Source: Datnioides undecimradiatus
Lineage: Eukaryota > Chordata > Actinopteri > Lobotiformes > Datnioididae
NCBI GenBank assembly: GCA_008933995.1
Contig: WARS01000051.1
Span: forward strand, 1,178,001-1,242,000
Direction of reading: 5' to 3'
Length of the DNA stretch: 64,000 nucleotides
Shown in pieces: positions 1 to 63,218 of the stretch. Position numbers and translations under genes: made by a program. The notes beneath the pieces are model-generated. The model saw only the letters and a list, made by a program, of their open reading frames with translations. It was not told the origin of the DNA and made no database searches. Every line of letters starts with the position of its first letter. Position 1 is the stretch's first letter.

Positions 1-3000
1 GCGTTTCACTACTGTAAAGGTTTATTTGATTTTAAATATATCCTCACTGCATCAACAATATCTTACAAACATTATATTCTATACAATAGATCACTACCAC
101 TGTCTACTGTGTGTTTATAGTCAGATTGCTGTCAGGAGCAGGCAGTGGGACCTGGTAGAAAGCTCATTTAGCACAGAAATGTGTCACATTCCAACATATT
201 CCATCTCTTAGAAAGCCTTAATCAGTCATAACAACTGTCCAACCAATTAACATTTCTATATCTATAAAGTGTGACCCTTTATTAATATATATATATACAT
301 TTAGAACATTTTATTTTTTAAAGTTTAAAATCAATCAACCATTCATCTTAACTTCTCTTTTTCTGGATCATGTGACCGACACAACCTGACCATACCATAA
401 GCTGGTGGGAGTGAAGTGTGACCGGACCAGCCTGGGGCTCGTCAGACGTTGACTAAAACCGAAATGACAGACTGGAGAACAGCTTTTGATCGCCACAGCG
501 TAAACTGTAAACATGTAAAAGAAAAAACACAATTTAGGGCAAAATGTAAATAGTATATTAACCAATAATTAAGCCCTTATACACTTAATATTAAGTATGC
601 TGGATTAGAAAGTACAAATATGATCTAAAGTGATATTTTATTATGTTTAACCTATGTAAATGATTATAATGACTGTATACTCGTCCTCGTATACTCGTGA
701 GATAAGAAGTGTCCTCTAATGACCTCTGAGGATTAGAGGTGGCATATACCTGATGAATTTATCAGTATTTAAAGTTTCAGATCCCTGCTGACTCACTGGA
801 GCTAAAGTCCTCCCACAGGCCTCCATCTCGAATCATGTGTCGATGCAGGATATTTGTGGCCACAGGTTTACACCAAACACAAACTCACGCACACATGCTC
901 GCTCGCAAAAGTGCCGCTCAGCTGGTTCCACGTGAGGAGGTAGGGCATTTATGAATACCTCATTCTGTTTAAAAGCCACACATCTCTGGTCATATGAGCT
1001 GGCGGGGTGTCCAGCTCATCTCGTGGCCCGACTCTCTGCAGGAGCAACATGCCAAACACACTGCTGCTCTTTGTCTCTGAACTGTAAACCAGCGTGTTTT
1101 CTTGTCCCGGTAGGCGTCATGGGGCATCAGCGGGTTTCACTGAGGGACTGAAGTACGTCTGGTTCCATTGAAAGGCTACTTGACACATGACTGTTTGACT
1201 CATGGGTTGTTTGCATATGGATTATGTCCATTTTTAACTTGACATGTGTGTGTTGTGGATTTGGAGGTAAACATAGGGATGTGTAAAATACCAGTTTTTA
1301 GTCTGAATCCACCAAACACGAAACCGCAACATAACAGGGAGGTTAAAGGTGCTCTGATTAATATCTTTATATGAATAATGGCTCAGAGGACTTTGTGTAA
1401 TGTGAAAGTTGTCACTCGTACTGAGAATTATGACTTAATTCTGAAGTTACCCATAACTCCTTGATGCTTTTCAGCCTCATTGTTTTGGTTTTCGGGCCCA
1501 CCACTGTAGTGTTTTGGTTCAGTCCCAGCTGCTAAAGCTAGCAAGGTCAAACTGAGGTTTTGCCAAAATTTTGCCAAGTGATGTAATATTTAATTTGACT
1601 TCTAGATGGTTTGAAACATAGAACCATCTGTGAAGATGTCTGAAACTGTTTGGAAAAGGGTAGGAACTTTAACAAACAATTGGGTGAACCATCTGTCTAT
1701 CGACATCCATCACAAGCTAACTTCAACCAGACAGGTCAGCACCTGTAGTTGTTTTACGGATGAGCAAACAGTCACTTCTGGCTGCTTTAATAGTTCCCCA
1801 TAGGACACTGATTGGTCCAAACCACTGTGGTTAGACCACATACGAATAGTTTGAAGCCTGGCAAGTTGGGCTCTCAGATCACATGGTTTCGTGTGAATCC
1901 AGCTGCTTCACAAAAGCAAAAGCAAAAGCCTCAGCTTCCCTTTTTGTGAATAAACAGGACACAGCGTGTAAGAACAGTATTAAAACCGCAGAATGGGATG
2001 CTGGTGACCTTGCCGCCCCCAGCGGAGGTATGAAAAGCAACACAGAGAAACTGACTCATTCACAAATTAGATACAACTTGGTGTCATCAGCATAACTTTA
2101 AATATGAGATTTTACTCTCATTTGAATGAAAGAACTACATTTTCAACCTCAAAACTACCCATGCTGCAAAATGGTACTTGTTAAATGTAACTTCTTCTTT
2201 CTGATGATGCCAGCGTGGCCCCATTATGTCATGTTATGAGAGCGAAACCAAACACCACTAACCAAACATCTCGGTGTAGCTTTATTACAAATGGACTGAC
2301 ATGAAAATCTGTAGAATGTCCCTTTAAATGACATTTGGAGCCACGTGAGACTTCTCTTTATACTAGAAATAGTTGTGGTTGTTGAGTCAATGTAATTATG
2401 CGTGACTTGAATGGGTGTGTCATTAACCTTTATCTTACAACCTGTTTGCCTGCTGACTGGCTGTGTGTGTGTGGACTGGAGCTTTGTGTACCAACTAACG
2501 AATGGTTGCCCGGGCTCATCCAACATACCAGGGAGTTCCTCCCATACCATGCATTCCTTTCAATGTAGTGTCACTGGGGCCACTTTTGTCAAACAGGATG
2601 CTGGTGTCTGTCTGCTTTAAAGGCTGAGGTCCTGTATCTGCAGCTCAAGTCTGATTTATGAAGTCAGCTGAGCCACGCTGGCTGTCTCCACCTCCAAACA
2701 ATACTTGTGTGTGGCTTACTGAGAACGTTTGTCGTGTTGTCTTTATCAACACGCCTAAGGAGAGAAGCCTTTAAAGTCTGATAGTGAAGGGGGAAGGAAA
2801 CGCAGAACAGCCCCAGATCACAGCAGCCACTTGCGTCTGCGCCCTCACCTTTGACCCAGAAGATGATAAGCAGGCTCGTGGTGCGATAGCCTCTCTGTGC
2901 AGGAACCTACTGCTGCAAACATGTTTTTGCAAACCTGGAACCAAGGTGCATGTTTTTGCTTCTTGCTGCTTTATTTGTGCCCTCGAAACGCAGAGAACAC

Positions 3001-6000
3001 GTGACCCTGTGAGATCTGTGTGATGTGCAGCAGCTGAGCGCTGGGTTGGAAGCAGAGGAGACCAGCTAGAGTAGATCCAGGGATGTCACTTAATTACGTT
3101 TAGCTCTTTTTGGGTCAGTTTGTTGGCGTCTGGACAAACGACGACCAACGGCGCCAGTAAAAACCAAAATCCACCACATTGCCCTCGGTTACTTTGTATC
3201 AGCCTGCAGCACACATTCACGCAGGTCAGCAAAGCAGGAAACAGCCGGTGACTTCCAACAACTCACTGATTAACAACATGAACCGACAACTCGATTCACT
3301 AAAAGTTGCTACCGTAACTAGCTCAACTGACCAATGTCGCATCACCCAAACATCCACGCTCCTTCTCCATCAGCTCCCTGCTCTGTTTAGAATTGTGCAA
3401 TTCCCCTGAGTCTGGCCCCGAGGCTCATTGCAGAAACGCCGACCTTGTTTGATCCTGAGGTTGGCCCTTGTGCCTGTTCCAGAGTTTTGAGGCTTAGATC
3501 TAAAAGCAACCATGCTTTTGTATTTAAATACGCACTAGTTAAGGCTATGAGTGTTTTCTTAAAAATCACTTCTCAAAACCCATTTTTATATACTTGCTTT
3601 ATACGACGTTGTGTTTTAGTGCATGTATTCTTCTTATTTGTATTGGTTTAAATGGATCTTCGTCTGTCAAAGCAATTTGTTAGACCAAACTCAAGTTCAC
3701 CTCCAAGAGGCGGAGCTAAAACAGAAAACAAACAAAAATGCAGCATCATGTCTCGAAAGGAGCAGCTGCACGCGGACGCTTGCCTACGTGCGGCCCTGAG
3801 AGGCATAACTTCAGTTTAAGATCAGATCACCCAGAGAATCTAATCTAGGATAATCTGCCTGTGATGGCTCACTTGATAGCATCCATTCTCAGAATACACA
3901 TTCAGATGGAAGATATAATTGTTCTTGCCACAGCTTATAGCACAAACCCCCACACAGCACAGTGCTGAACAGTCATGTCTGAAGCCCGGTAACTACACAG
4001 AATACGGGTGCTGTCTTTGTGTTGCAGGATAAGTTTGATGTTGATCTATCATTTTCTAATTGTTGACAAAGTTGGCGAATAGATGCAGCGGATTTGTCCC
4101 GTCTCTTGATTTGCTCTCGCCGCAGCAATCTCCTGCAACAGCTGGTCACTGTAGTTTTTAACACACGTCATTGGAACAGGAGGGAACAGTGCTTCTGTTT
4201 GGGACTACTTTCAGTAGTGGATGAGTACACACTTGAAGGTCACAGATTTTTAAGTTTTCTGGGGGGGGCACTGAGATGCAGAGGAAGAAGATACACAGTG
4301 TCAACGCACAATACTTGCAAGAGGGCCCACAATCATTGCAAGTTCTGGTATTCACTTTGGATTTGTGGTCATTAAGAGAAGACTATAGATCTTATTCAAT
4401 GGCAAACAATAACTGGGGTCAGCAGCAGCACCTCAGAAATCCTTTCTGTTGTCAAGAAGTTGCACACTTGACCAGCGATGACCAAAAAACACTTTATTTT
4501 TGTGATCTAATATGTGAAAAAAAGCACTTTTGAAGCACATGTGGACATATTTTTACTCATTTTAATGAAAAGTAAAATTAAAATAAAAACAGTATTTTGC
4601 AGGGTGTTGTAGCTTTTTCCTTTATTTTGCAGCTGAAAGCACTGAGACATTTGCTTTAGATTGGTGTCAGCTCCTTTAAAAGCCCAGTTCTATATCCTCA
4701 CGAGTCTTCTCTTGGTCATGCAGGCTCTGATCAAAGACAGCAAACGGAGTCGACTGCAGAGGAGTGGAAAGAAACAAAATACGCCGAGCTGTTTGACTGG
4801 GAGCACTTTGTAAACCTGCTATCAGTGATCACTCGCCGCCAGCAGACAGCTGACAGGTTAACAGAGGGCCGGGAGGCCATGCTATTTGCATTGAGAGTGC
4901 ATTCATACCTGCTCTGCGCTGATAACAGGCTCTCTGTGGACAGACTGTGACCGCATGATGTAATCCACATTTCCCTGCTTTTACAGCCGCTTGCCTGTGA
5001 CGTAAGTTGAACTAGCAATGCCTGCGTGCTGTCCCGATGCAGACAGGCCTGCTCTCTGTCTCATGCCCTTATTCACTGGCTCGCACACGCCCACTGAGCG
5101 CGCAAACACAGTGGAACACATGACAAGGAGACTTTGTCCCGCAGCACAGATGCATTTGCACATTGTCAGTGTTGTCTTTGCACCGCCGTTGGCCCAGCAT
5201 GCATCTGAACTCATCCAAAGCCGTTAGCACCCATAGAAATCCTCCAAAGCACCCAGGCGTTTGTTTGAATGCCCAACTGTTTTGTTTTACACCAAATGGG
5301 CTAGTTGTTCATCCTGATGCAATGATTAAGGGTGTTTACACGCTGCTGTGAGAGATTAAGTTTGGCCGGCGCTTTGTGTGATTACAATGGACGAAGGTGC
5401 CGACAACCCTGAGACGTCAGACTGATTGATCTGTATCGACTGACCCGCTGAATCTATCTCTCTCTGCCGGAACTACAACGCAGTCACAGGGCAATCACAT
5501 GCCGGTGACTTCTTCTGAACAAAGATAAAGAGCATCGTTGCGCGTTTACCAATGAGATTAACCATTTACCGCACATGGGGGGAGTGTCTCACAGGCCGCA
5601 AACAGTCACACAATTACGACAGGGAGAACTCAGTGACCTGGTGTGGAGTTATGTGCTGCCGCTGGTGGAATGCGCTTTATTGCTGCTAAGCCATGTCGCG
5701 TAAGGATGGAAGCTAACGGCTGGAAAGGTGCATTACAGACATATGAATGGGCTCAGCATTGGATTAAAGTGGAGGAATATGTTTAGGCACAGCTCAGCTT
5801 CAGTCCTTATTGGGTGTCACCACTAAAGAATTAGAGACCGTCTTCCAGTCGGGACGGTTTGTTGCATTTCAGCTGTTCAGCCTTATTCAAATATAAGAGT
5901 TTCTGTGCTGACCTCAGTTCCAATTAATCCAATTTGGCATTCAAAGCAAGGACACAAAAGGAGTGTAAGAGATCCCAGAATTCATCAGAATTACATGAGG

Positions 6001-11708: not shown

Positions 11709-12048
11709 GTTGTGCCGGTGAAGTAAGACGTAGCCCCAAAATGGACCCCTCCGACTGAGATGCAAACACATCCTGTGTTTTGCTGAGCAGCTGAGATCTA
11801 TCAGCAGTATAAGCCATGCCTGACGAGTAAAATCCCCTTTTTTGCTCAAAGCAATAAAAAAAGAAAAAAAAACATCCTACATGCCTCCCCATGTAGAGCC
11901 CCTTCAGTGCGTCCTGCTGGAGTGACTGCCCCCTCTTCCCAAGGATTCTGCCTCATCCCCTCTTTGTACCCCTTCTCCACCGACCACCCAACAGTAACTA
12001 CCCATCACAATGCTGCTCTACCTGAGAATGGCCAATACCTGAGGTCCC
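11709..12048 (+). promoter_or_regulatory. kiaa0232: KIAA0232 5' leader in exon 2 with six upstream ORFs
   Basis: Exon 2 opens after a TTTCAG acceptor and holds about 340 bases of leader before the main start codon at 12,049. It contains six upstream AUGs that all terminate before the main start: 11,741-11,758, 11,760-11,786, 11,816-11,830, 11,881-11,925, an AUG followed directly by a stop at 11,891-11,896, and 12,010-12,042. The main AUG has a poor context (C at -3, C at +4). Together these imply strong translational control, although none of the uORFs is shown here to be translated. Confidence 0.6.
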
Positions 12049-15000
12049 ATGCGTCCAGTGAGCACCGATTCAGACGGTCCTGCTCCTCCTGAAAACCTCT
12101 CTTGCCCCTACCCCCTCGTGGGCCCCCTGCCTGCCTCAGAGATGTCCTTGCTCCAGTCGCTGGGGCCAGTACAAAGCTGGCTTGGCCAGGAGCTTGAGAA
12201 GTGCGGGATTGATGCCATGATTTACACCCGCTACGTCCTCAGCCTTCTCCTGCACGACAGTTATGACTACGACCTGCAGGACCAGGTAGGCTCCCACAAC
12301 GATACAGGAACATTGCTTGTCAATTTTAAAAGCTTAGAAAAAAAATCATTGTTTGTGTTATGCTTTGTCAAATGAGTGGGCAGTAGGCTTTATTCAGGAA
12401 GGGAAGTTAGTGTGTGAATATAATGGCCTTGTTAGAGGAAGACATCAATTTGCCAAAGAGGTTAACAATGGGGCTTTCTTTCATAGCATGGCTTTGTGCC
12501 ACCACTGAATAATTCCTCCTTTGATTTCTGTGTTTGTGTAGAGATTGTTATGGTATATAAGCCTGCATAGAAATGATTATGCACAAGTACATCTTATGTA
12601 TAATATTTCTTCTATTGTCTGTGTTTGTTTTACTGTTTAACACTAGTTTGTGCTTCTGTCTTCTCTCTGAAAGGAAAACGACATCTTCTTGGGCTGGGAG
12701 AAGGGAACTGGGAAGAAATGGGGCAAGAGTAAGAAGAAAGGTGGGACCGACTTGAGTCTTGAGGAAATGAAGAAGCAAGCTGCTGTGCAATGCCTCCGCT
12801 CTGCATCCGATGAAGTAAGCAACATCATTTTTCACCCTGATAGTAATCCTGTGATTTTCATGATGTTTGAGGAGTGGTGTTAATCAAGTTAGTCAGAGTT
12901 CATAGTTAATCAAACTTTATACTCCTGTAATATAAAATAATTGTTAACTTGAATCACTTTCACTTTGGAGGAACCAGTCATTACTCATCAATGAAGCAGG
13001 GACTGCTTGACCTGCCCTGTCTGTTCTGAAACTTTAGAATGAAATGCATTCTGAATGCAGAAGGCATGAGGGTGTAATTGGTCTAATTATGTCAGGAATT
13101 TGTTACTGTAGTATTTCTTGTTGCTTGTTAAGGTGCAGTCATGCAGATATTAATCGCATGAATCACGGTGACTAGATACTGAATAAAGCTACATCAATGT
13201 AGAAGCTAAAGCATTTAGCAAGAGAAGATCGTTATTGTGCGTGCATCGTCACCTCATTTGACTGGATATCTATATCTTCATCTAGTTTTCATTGAAAAGG
13301 TTGCATTAAGGTCAGTAGTTTAAAGTTGACATAAGAGATACTATAATGTACTGTAATGTTTTAGCGCATGACCTTCAAGGAATGTCATTTGCATGTAAGA
13401 ATATATAATTATGTTCCAGAAGTATATTCATTTTATGCCAGAATTTTGTGTGAGTGAAGATTTGCTGACATTTTCGTCTGTAGCCAGCAGTAGTAAGGGA
13501 GGTGTGATTTCAGAATGACACAACATAAAGCTGGAGGAGGGTAGGGGGAAGGGTCTGCAAGGCAAGAGGAGGAGTGTTGAGCTCCTCTCAGGGGACTGGA
13601 CTCTGCGGTCTATTTTTTAACCAGCACATGCTGCACAGGATTGCAGCAGTGAGCAGCAGAGTCGGTCGGCTGTCAGCTGACCGGCATTAGCACAATGATG
13701 CAAGAGGAAACACAGGGCAGGAGGAAACTTTGCTCTTCATGAGGTGGCATGGTAAGGGATCATATTTTCTGGAAGAGTGAACAGGAAATGAGCGTGCTGT
13801 CAGAGAGGGCTGGTGTTGAGAAACGGCTATGTTGTGGTTTGTTTGAGGCTATTTGCTTTGTCGGTGCCTACTCGATCTAGCGTAGCATTTGAGCACAGTT
13901 GCCTGTTTATTTCAAACCCTTGTTTACATGTTTTCATCTGTCATATTGCGCAATTTGTGAGGGCTGTAATCTTAGCAGGATATGTAGTAAATGTTCAGTG
14001 CCTCAGAACATTGTGAGGCAATCATTCACACTGTTGCTTGGCCCTTTTTTATTTTTATTTTTTTGAAAGTATTTCTGCTCCATAGCTAAATATAGCACAG
14101 TCATGGCCATGCATGTCTAAGCTCTCATAAGTCAGCTGGTGTGACTTGTGTCAACCCCCATGCCTTTCATTCTTTCTTTTGGGTCACATTAGGGGTCGAA
14201 GTAGCTTTTGGGAACTCTGCACTGTTATCTAAAGCTACTGGATCGTGTCAGTCAGTCACGGTTGTTGTGACCTCAGAAAACGTTTTTCTTTTGTGTTTGC
14301 GTCACTGCTAGGTTTTTTTTAAATGTTTTTTGGCTTTGACCTCAACACAGTTCAAATAATACACGAGATACTGAAATCATCATCAGCCCTTTCTGTTATA
14401 TACTCAGCCATTTGATGAGATTGTCCATTCACAGTAATATGCAATGGAAAAATGGGGATTCCAAATTCTACCAGCCACTTCATTTTTAATTAATTTATTT
14501 TTTTTAAACAGCCATGTGTAAATATTGTGTTTTATGACATAACAAACAGAACCTTTATATGATTTATCACCCGGTAAACTAACCAACCTCAAGACTGTCC
14601 TCGGATTTTCTCAACTTCTCACTGTGACCTTTGCCTCTGTGGCCTGTGTCCCCTCCTTTTGAGATTTACTTGACAGGCCATGGATGTTTAAGACCTAGAT
14701 ATGTGTCAGTTCAGCCTTGCTGCCAGTTGTTCACAGTTGCCACCAGGTGTATAGTGGCCCAAAAAAGCATTTACTCTATGGACCACTATTGTAAAAGAGA
14801 AGTCTGTAAAACTGTGGACACCTCCCTAATCATGAGTAAATGATTCGAATTATAATTTAATCGACTTAGAACTTTTTCAGAAGTTTATCTGATTGATGTC
14901 AGTGCTGTGCACAAGCATGTGATGTGTGTTAGTATCTGTGGAGCGAGAAAATCTAAAACAAACACTGTTTTGTTGTGAAAAACTGAAAAGGAAAACAGTA

Positions 15001-18000
15001 AATGACACATTTATTCACAACTCAGTTATATTTAGGTTTATGATCTTGCATCACACTGCTGGTCACTTGTTAGATTTTGCTCTCAAACTTAAATTGCTTG
15101 CCATCATTATTAGTAGCTTAGTGACAGTAATAACTGATATGATATTGTAGGCGAGCTTTCATAACTACCCCCATCACAATTTTCTTCAGGTATATTTTTT
15201 CATTAATCATTTCCCTTATATGTCATCCCAAAATAGAGTCTATGCACATCTATAAATCCATCAGGCCAACCAAAATTCCCTTCCAATTATGCAAAATCAT
15301 CTGTGTTTGGTTGGCTGTGGGTGCCATTTTGCAGCACCGATGGGCATACAACAACAGACATGTTTGTATGCCGTAATGTGCCCAAACTAATTCTAAACTA
15401 TTGTGAACATGACAACTAAACCTCGAAAAAATATGTGTGTATTGATGTAATGATTTAGCATCCGCTAACCCCAGTCTTAGTTTGACTTCTTAAAAATCTG
15501 TTGTTTGCTCTTTGTGCAGAACTCTGGAATTGAGAGCCTGGTTGAAGAGCTTTGCTCTAAACTAAAGGACATCCAAAACAAACAGAAAGGTATGGTTTAT
15601 ACCCTCTACTGCGATTTATTGAACTTTCTGATTAAAAATGAATAGAAAAGGGTGAATATCAGTTTTAATAAGATGTCTTAATGTAAAATCTCTTTTACAG
15701 AGGAAAAACAGATTCAAAAGAAATCTGATGGCTCTCAGTCTCCAGATCGAGCTGAATCCCCCTCTTCAAAGGACCAGGTGGAAATGTAAGCTTTATGATG
15801 CATATAGAGTATACGTGAATATATTTGTTTAAAAAAGTGTCTGCAGAACACACCCATATTCATTTGCTCATATGAACTCAACTCCTATGAATGCATTTAA
15901 ATTAAGTTTTCCCTCCCTTTGTTGTGACTGCAGGTATTATGAAGCCTTTCCTCCTTTGTCAGAGAAGCCTGTTTGTCTCCAAGAGATCATGACGGTGTGG
16001 AACAAGGCTAAGGCCTGCGCATATTCAAGTTCATCATCCTCTGCAGCCCCACAGACCAGCACGGACACCTCTTCCCCGAAAGATTGCAACAGTGACGGTG
16101 AGGGTGCAAAAGAGCGAAACCTCGAGGCATGTGGTACCATCACTACTGTGACCAACGAGAGAGGCCAGCAACGACGAAGCAAGAAGGAGAAAGAAAACCG
16201 ATACCATGGTGGTGCAGCAGCGGAGGAGAAGTCTACCGTCCACTCTAAGAGACAGACGAGGCATAGATCTGAGGGGAAATACAGACCCAGGTCCTGGTCT
16301 TCTGGCTCCAGTGAGGCGGGCTCAAGCTCAAGTGGGAACCAGGGTGACTCCAAGTCATTCAGAAGCAAGGCAGTTAGGATAAGGCACAAATCCAGGGAGG
16401 CCGCAAAGAATAAGAGAACACGAAACAGTGGGCAGGTAAAGCTGCAGGTGAAGGTAATTGACAAAGAAGAACGAAGAAACGCAGGAGGGAGCAGTAGCAG
16501 TGCCACTGGAGGCGCTGTGAAACAACCACAGCTTTACAAAAAGGGGAAGAGGCCGCTGAAGGAGATTCGTAAAGATCCAAGCTGGAAGGAAGCAAAAGAG
16601 TCCGGAGTTGATGCCAGAAACAAAAAAGAATATATGGAGGAGCCACTTTGGTACACTGAGCCCATCACAGAGTATTTTGTACCTTTCAGCAGCAGACAAA
16701 GCAAGCTGGAAACAAAATATCGAAGCAAGGTAGACTCTCCAGAAGGCTTTGCCTTGTCAACTGACATTGAGAGGCTGCCGGAGAGGATCCAGGGAATCTG
16801 CATTGCCAATGAGAACTACCAGAGAGCATACCTTGCAGCGGGCTCATTTGTGGATGGGCACTTTGTGGAAGGGCCTGGCGAAGCAGAAGATGAAACTGCT
16901 GAACTCACTGGGACCTCAAGCTGCCCTCAGCCAGAGGATAGTAGAGATTTAGATGACAAGCATCTGTCTGAATTCACTCACTTCTATGAAGTTGATATTT
17001 ATCAATCCATATTGGATACTAGTGCCTCAGACTCTATACAAGAGAGTCGGATCTTAAGCATGATTCGACAAAAAAGCAAAGAGCAAAGAGACGTTGAGGC
17101 AGAATGTTGTTTAGTGTTAGATGGCCTTGAGCAGCAAGGGAAAAGTGCAATACGGGCAGACTCACAGGAAGCTTCGGGATCTGTAGGATTCTTAATGGAG
17201 GATTTTGAAAACATGGCTCAAGTGTGGGGATGTTATTCGCCATCTACTTCAGAAGATATAGATGGAGAAAGCTTCATAGGAGACTCTCCCATTCGGCTCT
17301 CCCCCCTTCTTGATAGTGTTTCATTTACCCTGAGCAAACTATCTGGAAATCTGGAGGAGCCTCCTGTTCCTGAAGCCACCAGTGAACCATCTGGTTTGAA
17401 CTCATCCTGCTTCTCTCTTTTTGAGCTGCAGTATGACAGCCCCACTTTTCCTTTTCCCCGCGACTCACTCACCGTTGGTCACGAAAACAACACAGATTCT
17501 AGTAGCTGTCTCGACCCACATTCTAATAAACAGTCTCGTTTGCTAATATGGACCAAAAATAGTGCCTTTGACGAAACTGAACACTGTTCTAACCTTTCAA
17601 CACGAACTTGCAGTCCGTGGTCACATTCAGAGGAGACCCGTTCAGACAATGAGCAAGGAAATGTTCAAACTGAGGATGCTGCTCAAATTGGCAATGAAGA
17701 GATCGATTGTATAATCCCTCCTCTCTCTGGTACATATCTGGAGGATGAAATTTTGGATTTTTTGCAAGAGAAGTCTGGCTGCAAGGGTGAGGAGGTCAGT
17801 GTTAGTACAGCATCCAATCAGACCTTCACCAAAAAATCTAAATTGGAGTCCATTTGTGGTATAGCATTAGAAAAGGATGAGAGTAAACAGTACAGCACTG
17901 GCATGTTTTCGGACAACACCAACCAACACAGTGATGACTACAGCTCAGGGATAATAAAGGATATTTGGACTGCAATAGGAGATGACAAATCTGTAATGTC

Positions 18001-20914
18001 AAGGCAAGGAGCAGAAAAAGCAAGCGAGGGGCTATTCTCAGATGAATCTAGTGGTTACTGCTGCAGTTGTCTGGAGGTGCAGGCAAAAGGAGTTCCAATT
18101 CAGGGACCTCAGAAAAAAGCAGTGCAGCGATCAGAGTATCACCTTTGGGAAGGCAAGAAAGAAGAACAGGACTTAGCCAAAAACAAACTCTCCAAGGTAG
18201 ATGGTGCTGGGGATTACATGACTCCGTCCAAGCCCTGGGACTTGAACTCTGACAAGGAGAGTACATCATTCATCTTAGGAGGGGTGTATGGAGAGTTGAA
18301 GACACTAAGTGGTGATAAAAATTGGGCTGTTGTACCTCCAAGTGACACCCAAGATAGCCTGCTCCAGTGTGCCGCGGCAGCTGCATCTGCTTCTAACTCA
18401 GACATGCTTACCATCACTGGCACAGATGTGTTCATGAACACTGGCAGCTGCTTTGCCCCTGGGCACAGGCCCCTGTGGAGGCCGCTCGTGTCCTTTGGGC
18501 AGAGTGACCAGGCCATTAGAGGAGGCGGAGATGGATTGAATAAGGGATTTTCTTTCATCTTCCATGAAGATTTGCTTGAATCATACGGAGGCTTGCATAG
18601 TGAGGAGCAAGGTTTAGAATATCCGTTCGCATCCTTCAACCTGAACAATCCCTTCTCTCAAGTCCTCCATGTTGAGTGTTCCTTTGAGCCTGAGGACATG
18701 GCTTCGTTCAGTCCGGGGTTCAAGCCCAAATCTATTCTTTGCTCGGACTCTGAGAATGAAGCCTTCCACCCACGAATATATGGCATCAACCGGACGCAGT
18801 ACAGGGCCATTCGCATTTCCCCCAGAACTCATTTCCGACCAATATCAGCTTCAGAGTTGTCTCCTGGTGGAGTGAGTGATTCAGAGGCTGAGACTGACAA
18901 AGAGGAGATGAGTTTTCCCGTCCTGGCGCCGGTGGACGTCTTCGATGATCCTCAGGCAGACCTCAAACCTCTGGAGGAGGATGCAGAATGTGAGGGCCCT
19001 TATTACGGGAAGTCAGAACTGGAATCTGGTAAATTCTTACCCAGATTAAAGAAGTCTGGCATGGAGAAGAGTGCCCAGACCTCTCTGGATTCACAGGAGG
19101 GCTCCAGTACCCTCCTGCCAATTGCTGAGCAAGAGATTTGCTTAGACTGCAAAACGGCAGCAACTGCATCAACTGCAGGTGGAGAGACAGACGTCTCAGT
19201 CGGCAAGATTCAAAAGGAGGAATCTTCAGGAGAAAAACAGTCCTGCTTATGCGCACCAGCAGGTCAGATCCCCAAGTATGGGATTGCATTTGACTTTGTT
19301 GGAGATGTGCCAGAGGTAAGGGTTTCTTAAAGTTATCTCCAACGATTATCAACATGCTGAGATCAGTGTGCGAATTGAACAGAGATGTTGCCCTAACCAC
19401 AGTGTTTCATAACCCACCGTCAGCTGTAAAATGGGCTCAGGCGGCTGTTTGCAGAAACACACTAACCACTTCTCGTTTCTCTCGTTTAGTTCCCTCTGTT
19501 AAATGTAAGTGGACAGGGAGGAACTGGCAACCAGCAAGATGAGTGCTGGTGGCAGAACACACTCTGTTCCCCCCTTTTCCCTGGATCTCAGTGTACAGGT
19601 ATACCTGTTTTCAAAAGCTTACTGTGACTTAACAGTTTATGTTTATACTTTCTTGCACATAAACATTCAAGGTAACAAATGTGGTCCAGCTAAGTTGCCA
19701 GTAACAATGCCTGCTAAAAGTATGCCCTCAACATTCAAATCCTTTATTTAATGTGAAGCTGTTGCTGGTATTACATGTAATACATGACCTATCAGCTTTC
19801 ATGATGCAGGAAGGAGTTGCTCATGGGTAAAGGAGGTTAATGAACTGACCAAATATTGACGAGCTGTTACAATTCTAGAACAGGGCCTGTGCATCACAGA
19901 TGACCACAAACTGACTTCTGCTGTTATAGCCATGGAAAGATGTCAACTGTCTACAGTAAATAGCATCCCTATATTTGGTAACGGCTATCAAAGTCCACTG
20001 AGAGAGTTTGATTTAAAAAAACATTTGCAGTTGCAATCAAGCTGAAATTCCTGATTAGGCCACATACTCTGTAGTGTTTGCAAGATGCTGTGCTGAAACC
20101 CTTTATGGTGTCCAGAAATGCACAAATCCCCTGTTTTATTGATACTTTGACGTAAGGATTTAAATACTTAAAGCTTATGTTTAATGTAAAACTACAGAAG
20201 AGGGGAAAAAAGTCCCAGTTCAGCAGCAATAGACTGCAGTGCAGAGAGTTGCTCAGCAGCTCTCCAGCGAGAACTTGTGTTTTCTTCGGTTAAGAAGTGT
20301 TCAGTTTAAATGAATGAGGGTCGTTACAGTTAACTGTATAAAACTGCAACAACCTGCATTATTTAGGGAGTCTAGCAGAGGAGCGGCTGATTTAAAGTCA
20401 GCGCTTTTACCTCAATTGTGTGAAGTCCTGTTGAGGACGACTTCTGGCATTACTAGTAGTGCAACTGTTGTAGACATGGATCCTAAGATTGTGATATTTA
20501 TTGCAACTTTTGCAATATTACTGCATTGATAAGCGATTACTCGTGATGAGTTATCTGATCTGTGGGTGGACCACTGAGAGTGGTGACTAGAGACTACAGC
20601 ACCAGAGCCAAATAAACCCACTTTTAAAAGAATTCATCTGCAGTCTGATTTTAAAAAAAAAAAGAAATAAAAAACAGTTATAATGACTGAGTACAACAGA
20701 TAAAGTGAACAGTCAGAAGCAGCATGGATATTAACATGTTAGCTTTTCTCAGAGTCTAACCATTTTACCATTTGTCTTCCTCCAGGGAGCAGCAACATTT
20801 GAATACTCCAGTTTTGCAGAGGACACCTGTCGTAGAGAGGAACCCTTCCTCTCCTTTTGTGACTGGACCTCTACCAGCAAAGATTCAGGGTCATCTCAGA
20901 GCTGGAAAAGCTAA
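12049..20914 (+). CDS. kiaa0232: KIAA0232 orthologue (DUF4603-type large protein of unknown function)
   Basis: Coding exons: 12,049-12,285; 12,674-12,814; 15,520-15,589; 15,701-15,785; 15,934-19,315; 19,490-19,598; 20,786 or 20,790-20,914. Phases agree at every junction except the last, where the expected CAG acceptor (20,785) gives an early stop and a GAG acceptor four bases on (20,789) restores the frame. With the latter the product is 1,382 residues, close to the human protein (about 1,395). The start MRPVSTDSDG resembles the human N-terminus. The first 180 residues are the most conserved (GIDAMIYTRYVLSLLLHDSY, then ENDIFLGWEKG). The rest is Ser-rich and acidic with basic patches near residues 320-340. 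The biochemical role is unknown; the family is vertebrate-conserved. TBC1D14 follows in the same orientation, as in human. Confidence 0.93.
15934..19315 (+). CDS. kiaa0232: KIAA0232 large exon (about 1,127 codons)
   Basis: This 3,382-base exon carries most of the protein. It starts by completing the Met codon split across the preceding intron (acceptor GACTGCAG) and ends at VPEV-type sequence before GTAAGG. Recognisable conserved blocks in order are: the YYEAFPPLSEKPVCLQEIMT block at the start; a low-complexity Ser/acid stretch; the GSSEAGSSSSGNQG segment; the basic RIRHKSREAAKNKRTRN patch; the EEPLWYTEPITEYFVP block; the NLSTRTCSPWSHSEETRSDN block; the GLNKGFSFIFHEDLL block; and the RISPRTHFRPISASELSPGG and KSAQTSLDSQEG blocks near the end. 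A frame open upstream of the exon continues only by chance. Several 60-190-codon antisense frames are shadows of this exon. Confidence 0.93.
20786..20914 (+). CDS. kiaa0232: KIAA0232 probable terminal coding exon
   Basis: The frame beginning GAATFEYSSFAEDTC is open to TAA at 20,912-20,914, and its F..SS..E..C pattern resembles the C-terminal region of the mammalian protein. The preceding exon ends in phase 1, so direct splicing at the CAG acceptor (20,785) would read GSSNI and stop. Either the GAG acceptor at 20,789 is used, or a small exon between 19,599 and 20,785 was missed. One candidate is the 17 bases from 19,811, flanked by ATGCAG and GTAAAG, which would restore the frame. Which is right needs transcript data. 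Confidence 0.55.
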   Translation, partial: GAATFEYSSFAEDTCRREEPFLSFCDWTSTSKDSGSSQSWKS

Positions 20915-56017: not shown

Positions 56018-56616
56018 ATGAGGACTGCTCACATCCTTCTGCTTTGCATCTTGGGAGCTGCGCTGCTTTCCTCAGTGATGTGCAACAGTAAGGCAACTTC
56101 ACATTTTGATCCTTCTCTTGAGGTTCGTCACCTCTCAGACCCGTTACCCACGGTTACTTTGTGGTCTTGTCTCCAGGTGGAACCGGTCCCGATGACTGCT
56201 GCTTCGAATTCTACCCGAGAAGAATCAGCAAAAAATTGATCAGGTCATATTATATGACTGATCATCGGTGCACCAAGACCGGAGTCATGTGAGTGCTGCA
56301 AACGCTCTTTCTTTCACTCAGCTTGCTTGGTTTCGATCACATTAATTAAAAAAGTCTCATTTTTCTTTTTTTTTTACCTGCTATACTGAAGCTATAATGC
56401 TTACATTAGCAAAAAAAGGCTTATTCTGCTTTTCCCAGATTCTACTTTTTATTTGCACTTCTTTAAAATCCCATTTGGCAGCCGTTCTCAACACGCAAAC
56501 GTTTTCCACCTCTTCCTTTCAGCCTGGTCACGCAGAAGTCCCGTCACATCTGTGCTGATCCGAGCCTCTCCTGGGTCGAGAGCATCATGAAAAGCTTGGA
56601 CGAGAACTCCTTTTAA
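56018..56616 (+). CDS. CC chemokine 1 (conventional three-exon gene, 91 residues)
   Basis: Exons 56,018-56,087, 56,177-56,288 and 56,523-56,616, in phases 1 and 2 as in typical CC-chemokine genes. Residues 1 to about 22 are a hydrophobic signal peptide (HILLLCILGAALLSS). The mature protein has the adjacent cysteine pair C31-C32 in the setting DDCCFEFYPRRI, then C55 and C71, the four-cysteine pattern of the family, followed by a C-terminal helix (DPSLSWVESIMKSL). It is a secreted leukocyte attractant acting on a seven-transmembrane CCR receptor. Teleost CC chemokines are hard to assign one-to-one to mammalian members, so I give no symbol. A plausible polyadenylation signal is at 57,026-57,031. 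Confidence 0.93.
56177..56616 (+). repeat. Tandem duplicate segment shared with 59,641-60,062 (copy A)
   Basis: The CC-motif exon, the following intron and the last exon of chemokine 1 recur in chemokine 2. The exon differs at about one base (GATGAC against GATAAC, Asp to Asn) over more than 100 bases. The intron is nearly identical apart from small differences around the T-rich segment at about 56,345-56,375. The last exons are clearly more diverged. The match starts abruptly at TGGAACCGG, close to the 5' end of the CC exon of chemokine 1. Confidence 0.92.
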
Positions 56617-57025
56617 AGCCGACCGCCCGCTCTTTAAAGCTCCCTGTTGCTGTTTCGAGTCACATGACCCTGACGCTGACATGTGATCACAACTTTGGCG
56701 TTTGTTTGCAAATCTGTATCCGAGCGAACACATATTTTGAGCTTGCGTTGGCACGTTGAACTGTGTATCCTTTGTTCTTGTCATTTCTTTTGAATGCTTT
56801 GTATTACCAACAATGTCATTTGGCATAAAGCTCCTACAAACCCAGTAAACAGTCCTGAAACTTTGTCTCGTCTCCTGTCAGTTCCTTCACTGCTAGAAAT
56901 CAGTGTGGAGTCTTCACTTCCCACACATCTCAGTCTGCAGTACAGCTGCCTTGCCTGTGGACAGATGTGTGAATATGTGGATCGTGTTGTATTCGATGAC
57001 GTATCCTCTGCTTCCGCTCGGACTG

Positions 57026-57031
57026 AATAAA
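57026..57031 (+). terminator. Candidate polyadenylation signal of chemokine 1
   Basis: AATAAA about 0.4 kb after the chemokine 1 stop codon. A closer variant AGTAAA occurs near 56,846 and could also be used. Confidence 0.45.
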
Positions 57032-57053
57032 TGAAATGCGTGCGCTACGCCCA

Positions 57054-57067
57054 CCACTAGGGGGCGC
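57054..57067 (+). promoter_or_regulatory. Perfect-match CTCF-like binding site
   Basis: CCACTAGGGGGCGC fits the CTCF core consensus CCASYAGRKGGCRS at all 14 positions. It lies just after the chemokine 1 polyadenylation signal and before the extended chemokine genes. A reverse-oriented site sits at 63,218-63,231, so the two would be convergent around genes 2 and 3. Confidence 0.6.
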
Positions 57068-57069
57068 AA

Positions 57070-58640
57070 ATTGCCAGGCCACACTAGCAATTTCAAAAAA
57101 ATCCTCCTGCGTCGAGCCATGAGCCGTCGAATTCTCATGTTGCCGTGGCGATGGTGACTGTGGCTCACGTTTTCCAAAACCCGATAAATTCCATTTTTTT
57201 TGTTGTTTGCCCCGCCATTGTCACGGTAACTGAATCCACAACAATAACTAGCTTAGCATTTGTCAACTATCAAAAGTGGAAAATGCAGCTAAAAAGACAG
57301 ACTGCAATGATGACATCATCCAGGTTATTGGGGTCGATGACAACAATGCAGTGACAACTGTAATTCATTTATTAATTCATATCATTATTTACTCATTGGC
57401 AGTGTAGGCACACTGTTGGATATTGGGCAGAATCTGAATGTCTTCATTCAAATTTCAGATAAAATATGAAATCACAATATTCAAAACACTAACGACTACT
57501 GCTAGAAATACTTTACAGCTGCTACCGCTGTGATCGCAGCTACTTCTCATTTCAGTAATAACATGTCATGTTTGAGTCCACCCTGTGAATGCAAGTCTCG
57601 ATCCTGAGAGTGATGTGCTCCTCTTTAGCTGCTAAATGCTCCACTAAGTTCACCAGCTGGACTCTTAAGTGTGTCTGTCCACAAAGATCTGCACGGTACG
57701 CTGCTGTCCTGCACCGAGGCGGGCGCCCAAGATCACGTGTTGGCTGTTGAGGCTGTAAAGTGAGTCGTTTGTGGCAGAAAGAGCTGTAGTGAGTGTCAGC
57801 TTTCACAGAGATGCACCAGAGTGGGCCCCAATAACTGAGATCATGGAGGAGGATACGGTGCGATTACTCCGGCTGCCAGAAGGGGGAGACAAAAGTGCTG
57901 CACTCAGAGCTCAAAGTCATTTTACACAGTTTGCAGCAACAGTTCAACTTCAGCTGTATTTGAACATTTCCCCCGTGTGTTGCTTCATTTCTAAACACTG
58001 GATCCAGTTATCATGCCTTTATTTGCTGTGTGCCCATCCATGATTGTCCGGGATGTGCACACAGCACATATTTATATATTTATATTTTTATCATTTTAAT
58101 AAGAAATCCTCATTTCACAACCATGAGCTTGTGTTTCTAATGCTTCAGCTTTACTCTTTAGTTTAATGTACAGCTTCATTTCTAAAGCCCGTTTCTTGAT
58201 GTTTGTCAGGGTTTCTGCCAAAGTGTGTCAAACTTTGCATGCATGGCACTTTATCCTGATGCGTATGTTGATACATTTTGCAGTTTTGTATGGAAAACAT
58301 GGCTTTTATTCATTTTAATAATTAATCAGGCCTTTTTACACCAGCAGGGCAGTGTTTTTCTCTCTCTGTAGCTGATTACACCAGAGAGCAAATATATCAC
58401 ATGTTGAGTAGATTTAATGTAGACTTTGTAATCAGGAGTGACGTTGAGATATGATTGTCTGAAATGTACAAAAAACAGAAGAAGACCGAAGCTAATAATA
58501 CGTCGTCATAGCAACAGGCAGAAACACAAATAGCCTTAAAGTAGTTTTGTGGTTACAGAGTTCAGTTTCGAACCCTACAACAACGCACAAACGCATTCTG
58601 CAGCATCTAAACTCTCAGTTGTGTTGCATCTCCCACGGTG
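57070..58640. other. Intergenic spacer between chemokines 1 and 2
   Basis: About 1.6 kb of AT-leaning sequence. I see no chemokine exon, splice-consistent coding block or repeat family in it. Confidence 0.6.
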
Positions 58641-58645
58641 CAGAC

Positions 58646-60062
58646 ATGCACTGGACAGCTGGGGTCTTTGTGTCTCTCCTGAACATCGCGTGGATTGTCG
58701 TCTTCTGGCAGCCAGAACCTTTCTCGGGTGGGAGAACTTTTGTTTATGTTGTCGGTTTTAAACTTTAAACCCAGTGATCACGAGTCGATGTTGGACTCTC
58801 TAGCAGAGCCGCGGGGTTTAAAGGATTGGTGGTGTATGTGTGTCGTTTTAGTGTCTGTACGCACAAGGAGTGTGGACAGCGACGATGGGACGCTGTTTGG
58901 AGAGTTTTGCATTCAGCTGCGGTCTGACATCGCCTATAATGAAACCAACAGCACCGACACATCTGAAGGTGAGTCCTTGTCATTCCCGCAAATGCTACGT
59001 AGTATTGTCTTCATCATACTGTCACACCACAACAATCCATTCCATTGGCCAGAGCGTTCTGCTGGCTAATATCTGAGGGTTCTCTGCAGAGTCTGGGCTG
59101 AGAAATTTCACAGGGCACGAAGGCAGCAACCTGACCGACGTGATCGGCAGTGAGCAACCAGCAACTAGTCTGCAACCAGAAGACGCGGACCTGGACCCGG
59201 ACCTGGACCTGGACCCGGACCCGTCCCCATTGTCGGAGGTCGTCCTGACATCTCCTGCAGCAGAACACAAACCTAGCATAAAGTCAGTGCATGTTAGCTA
59301 CCATGACCTTTAAACATTTAAACAGATGTGCAAACAAGAATCACCTTCCAGGGTGGCTTGTAGCAGTTCTCATTGTAGTGAGAGTAGTACAAGTACTACA
59401 GTCCCACTGCTGAGACCAGTGGGACCAGGCTTCCTCTGTGCCCTCACTCCACTCATGTTGTTAGTTCTGGATCCATGGAGTTTTGCCCATTAAAAGGCAT
59501 TAAAGCTCAGTGTGTGGGTGCTCACGTCGGCTGACATTCAACAGAGTTGCTTAACCCAGTGTCCTTGTGTATCCATGCTGTTGGTGACAGGTCTGAGACG
59601 ACCTTCCATCGGTCTCACGGTTCAGATGGAACCGGTCCCGATAACTGCTGCTTCGAATTCTACCCGAGAAGAATCAGCAAAAAATTGATCAGGTCATATT
59701 ATATGACTGATCATCGGTGCACCAAGACCGGAGTCATGTGAGTGCTGCAAACGCTCTTTCTTTCACTCAGCTTGCTTGGTTTCGATCACATTAATTTAGT
59801 CTTATTTTTCATTTTTTTACCTGCTATACTGAAGCTATAATGCTTACATTAGCAAAAAAAGGCTTATTCTGCTTTTCCCAGATTCTACTTTTTATTTGCA
59901 CTTCTTTAAAATCCCATTTGGCAGCCGTTCTCAACACGCAAACGTTTTCCACCTCTTTCTTTCAGCCTGGTCACGCAGAAGGCCCATCACTTCTGTGTCG
60001 ATCCGAGCCTCTCCTGGGTTCAGAGCCTCATGACAAGTTTGGATGAACACTTCATCACTTAA
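58646..60062 (+). CDS. CC chemokine 2 with long N-terminal extension (211 residues)
   Basis: Exons 58,646-58,727, 58,852-58,968, 59,090-59,282, 59,591-59,737 and 59,966-60,062; all junctions keep phase. Exon 1 encodes a hydrophobic signal (VFVSLLNIAWIVVFW). Exon 2 has a DSDDGTLFGEFC motif (Cys47). Exons 2-3 supply four N-glycosylation sequons (N57, N60, N72, N80) and an acidic Asp/Pro repeat (residues about 100-113). Exon 4 carries the CC motif (C150-C151, in DNCCFEFYPRRI) and C174. Exon 5 adds C190 and the C-terminal helix. The chemokine fold is therefore at the C-terminus, behind about 125 extracellular residues, which is unusual for the family. The extension could be a stalk, a pro-domain or a binding module. 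The alternative is that exons 1-3 are a separate gene, but no stop or polyadenylation signal separates them. Confidence 0.8.
59188..59223 (+). repeat. Coding hexamer repeat (six GACCTG/GACCCG units)
   Basis: Six tandem hexamers encode alternating Asp-Leu and Asp-Pro pairs inside exon 3 of chemokine 2. The array is likely to vary in length between alleles, and so change the length of the acidic stalk. Confidence 0.9.
59641..60062 (+). repeat. Tandem duplicate segment shared with 56,177-56,616 (copy B)
   Basis: Second copy of the chemokine exon-intron-exon unit. The 47 bases of exon 4 upstream of TGGAACCGG (59,591-59,637) have no counterpart in chemokine 1 and link the unit to the extension exons. 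Confidence 0.9.
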
Positions 60063-60188
60063 ACCAACCGCCCGATCGTTTTACTTGAATCTGTTGTGTG
60101 TCACTGCTAGGCACCGACATGCACGTTAACCATGTCATACAGAATGCAGAAAAGAGCTGTAGCTGTTGGTGATTTGAAAACCCGCTGT

Positions 60189-60194
60189 AATAAA
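60189..60194 (+). terminator. Polyadenylation signal of chemokine 2
   Basis: AATAAA about 130 bases after the stop codon. It is followed by mixed sequence with T-rich segments. Confidence 0.6.
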
Positions 60195-60199
60195 TGCTG

Positions 60200-61080
60200 C
60201 AATTCAAATGGAGCCACTGAGCTGGAATCCATGTACTGAACTGTTCATACGTCTCTCTTCTGTGTCTTTTAATCTATCAAATAACCTGAACTCATGGGAC
60301 ACACTTCCTCAAATAATGGCAGCTTTGTGCGCTTTGTTTTCAGCATAATCGCTGAATTTCAATCAGATTTATTTAAAAATACACGATAAAATGACCCAAC
60401 GTGAGCAACACAATGATGTGTTGTTAATGATAGTTGTGATAGTTAATAGATGTGATAGTTAATGATAAACATTTGACACACAACCTCCTTTAACTGTTCA
60501 ATCCGGACTAAAACCTTAATATTAACTGGCGAGTTGTGGTTTGGCAGGTATGGTGAGTCTCTGCTGGTTGCCTAGCGACCCCGGGGTGAGCCACGTGTGT
60601 AAACCCCACTGGTTACTTATGGGTTCAAGTGATAGGCAGATGTGAGATTAACATCAAAGGAAGGAAGCATATCTTATTTCATAGTTGCATGTGTTAATGC
60701 ACTGCTGTGTCACTTCACACTGTTGATGGTGCACCCCCCCCCCCCAAAAAAAAGATCAGACACTCTAAGGATTCTGGTGTATTTTAATATTCTAATGTTC
60801 ATCTTCCATATTTATCTTTGACTCACACTTTTTGTTTCTCTAATATCTTATTTTCCTCTCTTATTATGCGTCTCTTATTAATGCCGTGACAAATACCTTG
60901 TAGGTGGAAGATTCGTTGGTTCTAAGGCCTCAGAGCTGTGTTTCCACATACAAATAATCAATTCCGTGGCAACTGCATGAGGACAAATATGTGAGGAGGC
61001 CCATGTGCACACACACAACAATTAAAGGTGTAAGACTGGTGGAAACCGCTGTATGATTGACATCCTGCGCCTGTGTTTAA
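60200..61080. other. Intergenic spacer between chemokines 2 and 3
   Basis: About 0.9 kb, AT-rich, with a poly-C/poly-A junction near 60,735-60,754. No coding sequence is recognised. Confidence 0.6.
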
Positions 61081-61084
61081 CACT

Positions 61085-61090
61085 TATAAG
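61085..61090 (+). promoter_or_regulatory. TATA-like box of chemokine 3
   Basis: TATAAG in the context CTTATAAGAAGG lies 47 bases before the first in-frame ATG (61,132) and 83 before the ATG homologous to that of chemokine 2 (61,168). A start about 30 bases downstream would place both ATGs in the transcript. Confidence 0.5.
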
Positions 61091-61167
61091 AAGGAAGCAG
61101 GCAGACCATGTGTTGACAGATTCTGTGTGATATGACTAAAGCTGTCAGTCACCCCCGCAGCAGAGAC

Positions 61168-63218
61168 ATGCAGCCTATGGTCCAGGTCGCCGTGGCGCTC
61201 CTGAACGTTCTGTGGATGGTCTTCTTTTTACAACCACATCCTTTCTCAGGTACAGAGGGTTTTGTCTTTAGCTCTTCTTCGGCACCAAATGATAATTTCG
61301 TCTCTGACGAAAGCCTCGCTGTGGCGCTTCACGTCATGTGATGCTTCGTGCTGGTTCGCAGTGTTTGTGCAGAGAAGAAGCAGCGTCGGCTCCGATGATG
61401 AGACGCTGTTGGGAGAGTTCTGCGTTGAGCCTCAGTCTCACATGAGCTGGACATCAACTCCTCATTCAGTCACCGCCACCGCCACTGCTGAGAATGAACC
61501 CAACAGCACCACTCAGACGACACCTGAAGGTCAGCTTTAGTCTCCCCTTCACTCCCCTGTCTGTGCAAGGTTCCTATTGTAATTATATTGCATTGAAGCC
61601 CCTATAAACATATCAGCAGCAGGTGTGCAACAACGTTTTGCAATATCATTTTTCTATTAAAAGATAAAGAAGTCAGCTGCGTAATTGGGACGCTGGAGGC
61701 CAGAGGTTCTTAATATGACTTCATGTTTTAATGTTAATGGGTGATAAAGACATTTTGACAACATTAAGATGAGATTATGTTGGAAAATATTAAAGTATAT
61801 TATAGAAAATATGGCATGAGTAGGAGAAACCCCAAGTACGCAACTTATTGGCTCTAAATTGACATTTTTTATGGTTCTTTGGTTTCTTTGCAGGAAGTGC
61901 TGTGATGACTTCTGACAGAGTCCTCAACCACATTAAACCTACTGTACATGATGAGGAGAAAGCAAAAAGCCCCTCTCAGAGATAGAGTGTTTTAGCGCTG
62001 CACTGTGGTGTGCAAAAAGAAAGTGTTTCTCATGCAAGAATATTCCTCCATGCGGCTGTGGTGTAACACTGTTTCGTGTGACACCCAACTTTACGAGTTT
62101 CATACACTCTAATCCATCCTTTTGTCCTTTTGTTGAGCTGTGTTAGTCTGTAGTATGTGTGACCTGGTCCTGTAAGATTTTTATCTCCAGTAGGTCGGCT
62201 TTGGTTTTTCTTTACTCCCTGGCGTTCCTGTGTATTTTCGACAGCAAACACAGAGATCGGCTTCACACTGGAGGAGTATCCATGGCCAGAAGAGATGCTG
62301 CCCCCACAGCCGTCAGAGATCGACCTCAGGCCTGCTCCAGGAGGAAATGAACCTCACATAATGTAGTTGGTGTTTAATGTTTTGCTTTTTAAGTCATATT
62401 AACACATTACACATATTTTATACATTATACCGACTCTTCTTCTGTTGCATCGCTGAGCTGTGGATGACACTGCAGCGCTGCAACATGACATGCAGGTGCA
62501 GTTTAACAGTGTCTCTGCTTCTATCCCCTGTTAGAGACCTGGATCGGACAACTCCAGCTCCACCCCCTGCACAGACGCCGACGACCTCAGCGCTCGGCCC
62601 TGCCAGGAGCTCAGAAGCTGCTGCTGTTAGTGACGCCTACCGTCCAATGTGCCTGAACTGTGCTCCAAGAGTTAGCAGTGAGTGTTTGCTCTAACACACT
62701 GAAGGTTTGAAGGAGAACGTTCCTCACTATAAGCCTACACATCACCATTATCATCACATAATTAACTCTTAGCGTTGTTAATGAAGGTCATCTGAGTAAA
62801 ATACCAACATTTTCAGGCATGATCCCGTGCTGCTTCAAGTTTTACACCGGAAGAATACCATGGAGACGTATTAAAGCATATTTTCAAGTCTCACCACCAC
62901 TGTGTCCCATGAAGGCCATTGTGTAAGTAAAGGCTAATGCTAGCATATTCGCATAGATATAACATTATGAATTTCCATTTCCAACATTTATGTATTATGA
63001 GTATGAAATAAAATGTAATTTTTGGTCAAAAATGCACATTTTAGTATACTTTAGAGTTAGTGGTTACAACAAACTGAGCGTAATAATGACTCATCATCTT
63101 ATTCTCTCTCCACAGTCTGATTACAGTTAAAAAACGCAAATTGTGTGTTGATCCAAGCGATGTATGGGTCCGGAATATTCTGAAAAACACGAGACCTCTG
63201 CATTATGTTGGGCAGTAG
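61168..63218 (+). CDS. CC chemokine 3 with long N-terminal extension (239 residues)
   Basis: Exons 61,168-61,249, 61,362-61,529, 62,245-62,362, 62,535-62,677, 62,817-62,922 and 63,116-63,218; phases agree throughout. Exons 1-2 are homologous to those of chemokine 2: signal VAVALLNVLWMVFFLQPHPFS, then SDDETLLGEFC (Cys48). The extension continues with a Thr-rich segment and sequon N75, an acidic/Pro segment (EEYPWPEEMLPPQP) and a Pro/Thr/Ala stretch, with extra cysteines C162 and C165. The CC motif (C175-C176 in IPCCFKFYTGRI), C200 and C216 complete the fold, ending in DPSDVWVRNILKN. The chemokine part is strongly diverged from genes 1 and 2. ATG 61,168 was chosen by alignment with gene 2; ATG 61,132 is in frame and would add 12 residues. 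An alternative terminal exon is possible. Confidence 0.77.
61894..61985 (+). CDS. Candidate alternative terminal exon of chemokine 3 (isoform without chemokine domain)
   Basis: The acceptor TTCTTTGCAG at 61,893 is strong and matches the phase 1 end of exon 2. The frame stays open for 30 codons (SAVMTSDRVLNHIKPTVHDE and on) to TAG at 61,983-61,985. No donor in it gives the phase needed to join the exon at 62,245, while skipping it does. If used, it would give a secreted protein of 113 residues with the extension module only. The open length could be chance. Confidence 0.3.

Follow-up and report, generated by a model that had tools for sequence, protein, structure and literature searches.

The N-terminus of a chemokine is the part that switches its receptor on, and in a few mammalian CC chemokines (CCL6, CCL9, CCL15 and CCL23) it is lengthened by some 20-40 residues. 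Within the parts of the sources covered here, the extension of CCL6 and CCL9 is described as separately encoded and placed before the chemokine body (PMC8962359), CCL6, CCL15 and CCL23 are grouped by their N-terminal extensions (PMC7914252), and truncation of CCL6, CCL9, CCL15 and CCL23 by proteases, physiological fluids or cell supernatants is reported to enable CCR1 activation (PMC8885419). For teleosts, the covered part of a zebrafish survey includes 19 table rows of 150 amino acids (aa) or more, and describes chemokines with COOH-terminal mucin-type segments or with five coding exons, such as CCL-chr20e and CCL-chr20f (174 and 163 aa) (PMC2416438). Here, we describe two tandem genes, gene 2 and gene 3, in a 64-kb stretch of the Datnioides undecimradiatus genome (contig WARS01000051.1; this whole stretch is called the window, and positions refer to it unless stated otherwise). 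As judged from the genomic sequence, exons 1 and 2 together with the CC exons very likely make them an N-terminally extended chemokine gene pair.

Genes 2 and 3 resemble the CCL6/9/15/23 ('NC6') group in having one or more extra coding exons between the leader and the CC exons, with the extension before the chemokine body; at gene level, exons 1 and 2 are conserved and in frame. The CC domain is likewise MIP-like: the best solved-chain match of the ordinary neighboring chemokine, gene 1, is CCL3, with CCL14, CCL23 and CCL15 chains also matched. The best solved-chain matches of the gene 3 domain include CCL8, CCL7, CCL17 and an XCL1 ancestor. The fish genes differ from the group in the length of the extension (39-143 residues) and in their CC domains, which have four cysteines only and lack the two additional ones that bring the known group to six. 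With CX3CL1 and CXCL16 they share a chemokine domain joined to a Ser/Thr/Pro-rich, glycosylation-prone segment. However, the mucin segment and membrane anchor of those proteins lie behind the domain, whereas the fish modules lie wholly before it, and only 21 (gene 2) and 23 (gene 3) residues follow the last cysteine, with no stalk or membrane span among them. Like the long zebrafish chemokines, the predicted products far exceed 100 aa, but in all 19 zebrafish rows the number of O-glycosylation sites predicted for the COOH-terminal region is the same as for the whole mature peptide, and none is predicted ahead of the domain in the covered part of that survey (PMC2416438); the N-terminal placement seen here is therefore unusual. 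No fish chemokine with such a module was found in the open-access literature covered, which does not show that none is in print. According to the first-pass annotation, large chemokines known so far carry their stalk after the domain and not before it; the extensions described for CCL6/CCL9 and CCL15/CCL23 make this statement incomplete. Because these mammalian extensions are already known, the principle is not new, while the length, acidity and glycosylation potential are unusual; by analogy, the fish pair has a mammalian precedent that appears to work alike.

All exons, frames and junction phases of the precursors proposed by the first-pass annotation were reproduced, and the reading frame is open throughout: five exons encode 211 aa in gene 2 and six exons encode 239 aa in gene 3. 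The shared SDDxTLxGEFC motif is present in exon 2 of both genes, as claimed, and the C-terminal CC fold holds equally. PF00048 (IL8) matches residues 149-204 of gene 2 (55.4 bits, E-value 6.8e-15) and residues 175-230 of gene 3 (56.2 bits, 3.8e-15), against a Pfam cut-off of 21.3, and each domain carries four cysteines in the pattern CC...C...C, the first pair being adjacent. In the predicted exons, the leader exon ends in phase 1 and a phase-2 intron splits the CC domain, as in gene 1. Counted from residue 28, the predicted module of gene 2 spans 115 aa with a charge of about -16, 31% Ser/Thr/Pro and four N-glycosylation sequons, and that of gene 3 spans 143 aa with a charge of about -13, 36% Ser/Thr/Pro and one sequon. 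In gene 2, a 6/12-bp tandem repeat (GACCCG/GACCTG, 59182-59223) encodes the stretch DPDLDLDPDP, so this acidic run may differ in length among individuals.

Exons 1 and 2 are very likely real exons, since they are conserved between genes 2 and 3 while the adjoining introns are not; the homology first proposed for them is thereby upheld. The DNA of the two genes matches in exon 1 (75% of 60 nucleotides, nt), in exon 2 (80% of 51 and 79% of 42) and in the opening part of CC exon A (79% of 29); six further matches listed measure 10-13 nt each. Alignment z-scores reach 8.9 for exon 1 and 10.3 for exon 2, compared with 1.7 for intron 1, 1.2 for intron 2 (its initial 121 nt) and 1.9 for the upstream 100 nt. 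At the peptide level, none of 5000 shuffles attained the score of exon 1, nor did any attain that of exon 2. Across both exons, synonymous and nonsynonymous divergence (dS 0.71, dN 0.37, dN/dS 0.52) fits constraint on the encoded protein, the underlying numbers being small. At gene level it is established that exons 1 and 2 are conserved, that frames and phases fit and that the CC domain is canonical, and no other convincing leader came to light.

The reading we prefer, and to which we give about an even chance, is that genes 2 and 3 are two tandem CC genes for protease-activated (or splice-switched) pro-chemokines, with cassette exons in the phase-1 first intron. Exon 1 would be a normal chemokine leader exon, and the cassette exons would have been acquired in the first intron. 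Exon 2, and probably exons 3 and 4, would be spliced to the CC exons and would encode an acidic, glycosylatable module directly before the first cysteine, most likely acting as a pro-region. The full-length product would then be unable to insert a short free N-terminus into the receptor until extracellular proteases trimmed the module near the CC motif, giving a chemokine of normal length, whereas skipping of the cassettes would give an already active 96-aa form. Counting back from the CC pair, the nearest arginine is 6 residues away in gene 3 (APR/VSSMIPCC, the slash marking the putative cut) and 11 residues away in gene 2 (FHR/SHGSDGTGPDNCC); a trypsin-like cut at these arginines would leave an N-terminus of normal length. 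In gene 3, the acidic module (about -13) stands opposite a strongly basic CC domain (+10.5).

Several observations weigh against this reading. Each module holds seven Arg/Lys residues, so the CC-adjacent arginines are not unique sites and other cuts are possible, and the CC domain of gene 2 is only slightly basic (+1.1), electrostatic masking thus fitting gene 3 better. The extended chemokines are predicted from gene sequence, and the selection signal in exons 1 and 2 comes from few sites (36 synonymous sites, about 17 changes). A scan for leader exons (exons that contain an ATG, encode a hydrophobic segment and end in a donor whose phase suits the CC exons) was unselective, 9 of 19 control blocks containing at least one match (range 0 to 8); its outcome, given below, points to a scarcity of alternative leaders and does not mark exon 1 out as special. 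Aligned with each other, the exon 3 peptides of genes 2 and 3 score no better than chance (1171 of 5000 shuffles reach their score), exon chains comparable to the proposed ones occur in 4-13% of controls, and some splice sites are weak, the exon 3 donor of gene 3 scoring -1.7 and the exon 4 acceptor of gene 2 scoring -0.2. The splice matrix also gives low scores to the CC acceptor of gene 3 (-0.3) and to the acceptor of gene 2 exon 2 (-0.5), an exon that is well conserved; the matrix is therefore coarse.

The length of the module depends on exons 3 and 4. The DNA of exon 3 aligns between the genes with a z-score of 3.7, near that of intron 3 (3.0), and gene 2 exon 3 has no similarity to a possible alternative gene 3 exon at 61894 (3615 of 5000 shuffles reach the score). 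In the chance control, random segments took the place of the sequence from exon 2 to the CC exon and were examined for an in-frame exon chain matching the proposed one in length and score. With exact thresholds, a chain of the gene 2 type arose 74 times in 1000 window segments and 112 times in as many dinucleotide shuffles, and one of the gene 3 type 125 and 43 times, respectively. Smaller runs gave 6 of 150, 18 of 200 and 8 of 200 for gene 3, and 8 of 200 and 23 of 200 for gene 2, whose threshold was slightly high; the 1000-segment control, less favorable to exons 3 and 4, is the one relied on. Agreement of phase over nine junctions had been advanced as an argument against an artefact: the phases do agree, but because equally good chains arise by chance, this is weak to modest evidence. 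Similarly, of the module of 125-150 residues first described, the homologous extra exons upstream stand, while the full length hinges on exons 3 and 4, for which homology gives no support. Exons 3 and 4 are plausible but putative, and the longest form is a candidate.

Nor do the two genes, cited by the first-pass annotation as two diverged copies, bear independent witness to the joining of module and CC domain. Gene 2 matches gene 1 at 110 of 112 positions in CC exon A, 224 of 228 in the following intron and 79 of 94 in exon B, while its flanks are not near-identical to gene 1. Judged by these identities, the tract is a recent duplication or gene-conversion tract, and gene 2 is a mosaic of a gene-3-like N-terminal module and a gene-1-like CC domain; it follows that the copies are not independent on this point. 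The tract has a sharp edge at the splice acceptor, and its exon A and intron are about 98% identical, exon B 84%.

The phases also allow shorter products. Exon 1 of genes 2 and 3 ends in phase 1, like the leader exon of gene 1, exon 2 is phase 1-1, and exons 3 and 4 of gene 3 taken together are phase 1-1, so that exons 2-4 are best seen as cassettes within the normal first intron of a chemokine gene. Joining exon 1 directly to the CC exon yields an intact, in-frame chemokine of 96 aa in both genes, an outcome that the earlier interpretation had left out. Other in-frame forms comprise 135 aa (exons 1-2-CC) and 155 aa (internal phase-1 donor 59149 in exon 3 joined to 59626) in gene 2, and 152 aa (exons 1-2-CC) in gene 3. 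The phase-1 acceptor at 59626 lies inside gene 2 'exon 4', at the position where the CC exon of gene 1 starts, and its use would bypass exon 3. The main products may thus be the 96-aa chemokines, with the extended form minor or unproductive and exons 2-4 alternative or decaying. The shared phase of exon 1, the intact skipped forms, the retained acceptor and the poor support for exons 3 and 4 all speak for this possibility, but exon 2 is conserved as much as exon 1 with its motif kept, its donor in gene 2 is the strongest in 58600-59970 (8.3), and the 59626 acceptor scores low (-0.6); we regard it as credible but doubtful. Another explanation would split each place into two separate genes, a small secreted mucin-like protein (exons 1-3) beside a CC chemokine with its own leader. 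Gene 2 exon 3 could indeed read through to a stop, with ATTAAA at 59489 and 59499, and in gene 3 the 61894 acceptor in the second intron, by the splice matrix the strongest in 61100-63200 and within the top 0.2% of AGs in the window, leads to an open frame with its own stop. The leader scan of gene 2 (56640-59625), however, returned exon 1 as the sole match for the phase-1 acceptor and none for the phase-2 acceptor. That of gene 3 (60070-62816) returned four matches, of which three are overlapping starts of exon 1 and the fourth, at 60391 (MTQREQHND start), has a weak donor (-1.7). A separate leader for the CC exons, the finding that the first-pass annotation had named as able to overturn its model, was therefore searched for and no convincing one was found for either CC domain, which makes the two-gene explanation very unlikely.

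The nature of exon 1 bears on a further alternative, in which it encodes the uncleaved signal anchor of a type II membrane protein, with the acidic glycosylated module as its stalk and the CC domain as its C-terminal tip, to be shed by a protease, comparable to a reversed fractalkine with TNF-like topology. In gene 3, the (-3,-1) rule for signal-peptidase cleavage, applied to residues 1-41, is satisfied at residues 37 and 38 only, well beyond the hydrophobic core; the QPxPFS segment behind the core is conserved in both genes, placing Pro at -3 of the site after S27; the best 17-residue Kyte-Doolittle means are 2.14 and 2.32 for genes 2 and 3; and initiation at the in-frame ATG farther upstream in gene 3 (61132) would enrich the cytosolic side in basic residues. 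Against an anchor, both cores contain a central Asn, are followed by Arg residues and are poorer membrane segments than the leader of gene 1 (-0.6 and -1.6 vs -2.5 on a membrane-insertion scale; Kyte-Doolittle mean of that leader, 2.62), and in gene 2 the rule accepts several cleavage sites, of which the nearest follows S29. These rule-based checks split between the two genes; we do not favor a type II anchor and give it a low but real probability. The description of both products as secreted is plausible, with the qualification that gene 3 has no cleavage site by this rule before residue 37.

Table 1. Features of the chemokine cluster (window coordinates; aa, amino acids)
Feature	Position	Strand	Basis
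Gene 1, ordinary three-exon CC chemokine, 91 aa	56018..56616 (exons 56018-56087, 56177-56288, 56523-56616)	+	PF00048, 1.2e-16
Gene 2 exon 1, hydrophobic leader, ends in phase 1	58646..58727	+	Reproduced model, gene 2/gene 3 conservation
Gene 2 exon 2 (phase 1-1), encodes SDDGTLFGEFC and a pair of adjacent N-glycosylation sequons	58852..58968	+	Reproduced model, conservation
Gene 2 exon 3 (phase 1-2), acidic DPDLDLDPDP, two sequons, weakly supported	59090..59282	+	Reproduced model
Gene 2 'exon 4', CC exon A preceded by 35 nt of additional in-frame sequence	59591..59737	+	Reproduced model
Tract common to gene 2 and gene 1	59623..60080 (gene 1, 56174-56635)	+	Near-identity of exon A and intron; copied recently by duplication or gene conversion
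Gene 2 CC exon B, stop codon included; AATAAA at 60189	59966..60062	+	Reproduced model
Gene 3 exon 1, hydrophobic leader, ends in phase 1; in-frame upstream ATG at 61132	61168..61249	+	Model, conservation, leader scan
Gene 3 exon 2 (phase 1-1), encodes SDDETLLGEFC and a Thr-rich tail	61362..61529	+	Reproduced model, conservation
Gene 3 possible alternative terminal exon, about 30 open codons closed by TAG	61894..61982	+	Strong acceptor
Gene 3 exon 3 (phase 1-2), encodes an acidic segment; weak donor	62245..62362	+	Reproduced model
Gene 3 exon 4 (phase 2-1), rich in Pro/Thr, with two further cysteines in MCLNC	62535..62677	+	Reproduced model
Gene 3 CC exon A (phase 1-2)	62817..62922	+	Model, PF00048
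Gene 3 CC exon B, stop codon included; ATTAAA at 63387	63116..63218	+	Model, PF00048

The window contains three CC chemokine genes on the plus strand (Table 1), flanked by a DUF4603 gene upstream and an Ada2-type gene downstream. The former, which we take to be KIAA0232, has frames matching the Pfam family at 12043-12372 and 15833-19327 (12043-19327 overall). The downstream segment (L008) contains a minus-strand frame with no Pfam match, presumably CCDC96 from human gene order, followed by the Ada2-type gene with ZZ_ADA2 and Ada2b C-terminal domains (L008 positions 1531-5031), presumably TADA2B. The DUF4603 and Ada2b-like flanks resemble what we take to be the gene order at human 4p16.1. To our knowledge, no chemokines lie at that human locus, and the chemokine cluster here is possibly lineage-specific.

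Searches of the 581-Mb assembly, in which only the best candidates were scored and the counts are lower bounds, placed exons 1 and 2 nowhere but here. Exons 1-2 of gene 2 had at least two matches, both gene 2 itself; those of gene 3 had at least five (E-values up to 10), two in gene 3, one in gene 2 (0.08) and two elsewhere in the genome at 4.4 and 5.3, which we take as chance. The CC query of gene 1 found at least 11 places, five in the three window genes and six elsewhere (best 0.005), and that of gene 3 found at least four matches, two in gene 3 itself, one in gene 1 and one elsewhere. PF00048 found at least seven places, none of them the three window genes, and thus provides no inventory. 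Searches of Pfam, NCBIfam and solved chains gave no convincing known relative of the gene 2 and gene 3 modules; neither the gene 2 module nor gene 3 exon 2 matched a chemokine chain, although solved chains may lack the extension. Viral contigs (6 pattern matches with the whole gene 2 protein, 79 with the exon 1-2 pair) and prokaryote genome contigs (43 pattern matches), where fish genes are not expected, yielded no confirmed relative. Gene 2 exon 2 was also considered as a captured nucleoside diphosphate (NDP) kinase exon, with a best E-value of 0.067 (0.36 for the whole gene 2 module), which is probably chance: gene 3 exon 2 has no NDP kinase match and Pfam gives none, its one weak match being to a SHIP C2 domain (0.012).

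Taken further, the two genes could belong to a fish chemokine class that is latent or tethered by its N-terminus, with an anchor or leader, an acidic glycosylated stalk and a CC domain that becomes an agonist only after a CC-adjacent cut, though we think this rather unlikely. Within such a class, the conserved GEFC cysteine might be able to dimerise the protein and cassette splicing might switch between latent and ready-active forms, a suggestion we offer with little confidence. A large, separately encoded N-terminal module would be a natural latency device, and the pro-chemokine reading of genes 2 and 3 would point to repeated origins of N-terminal pro-modules among CC chemokines.

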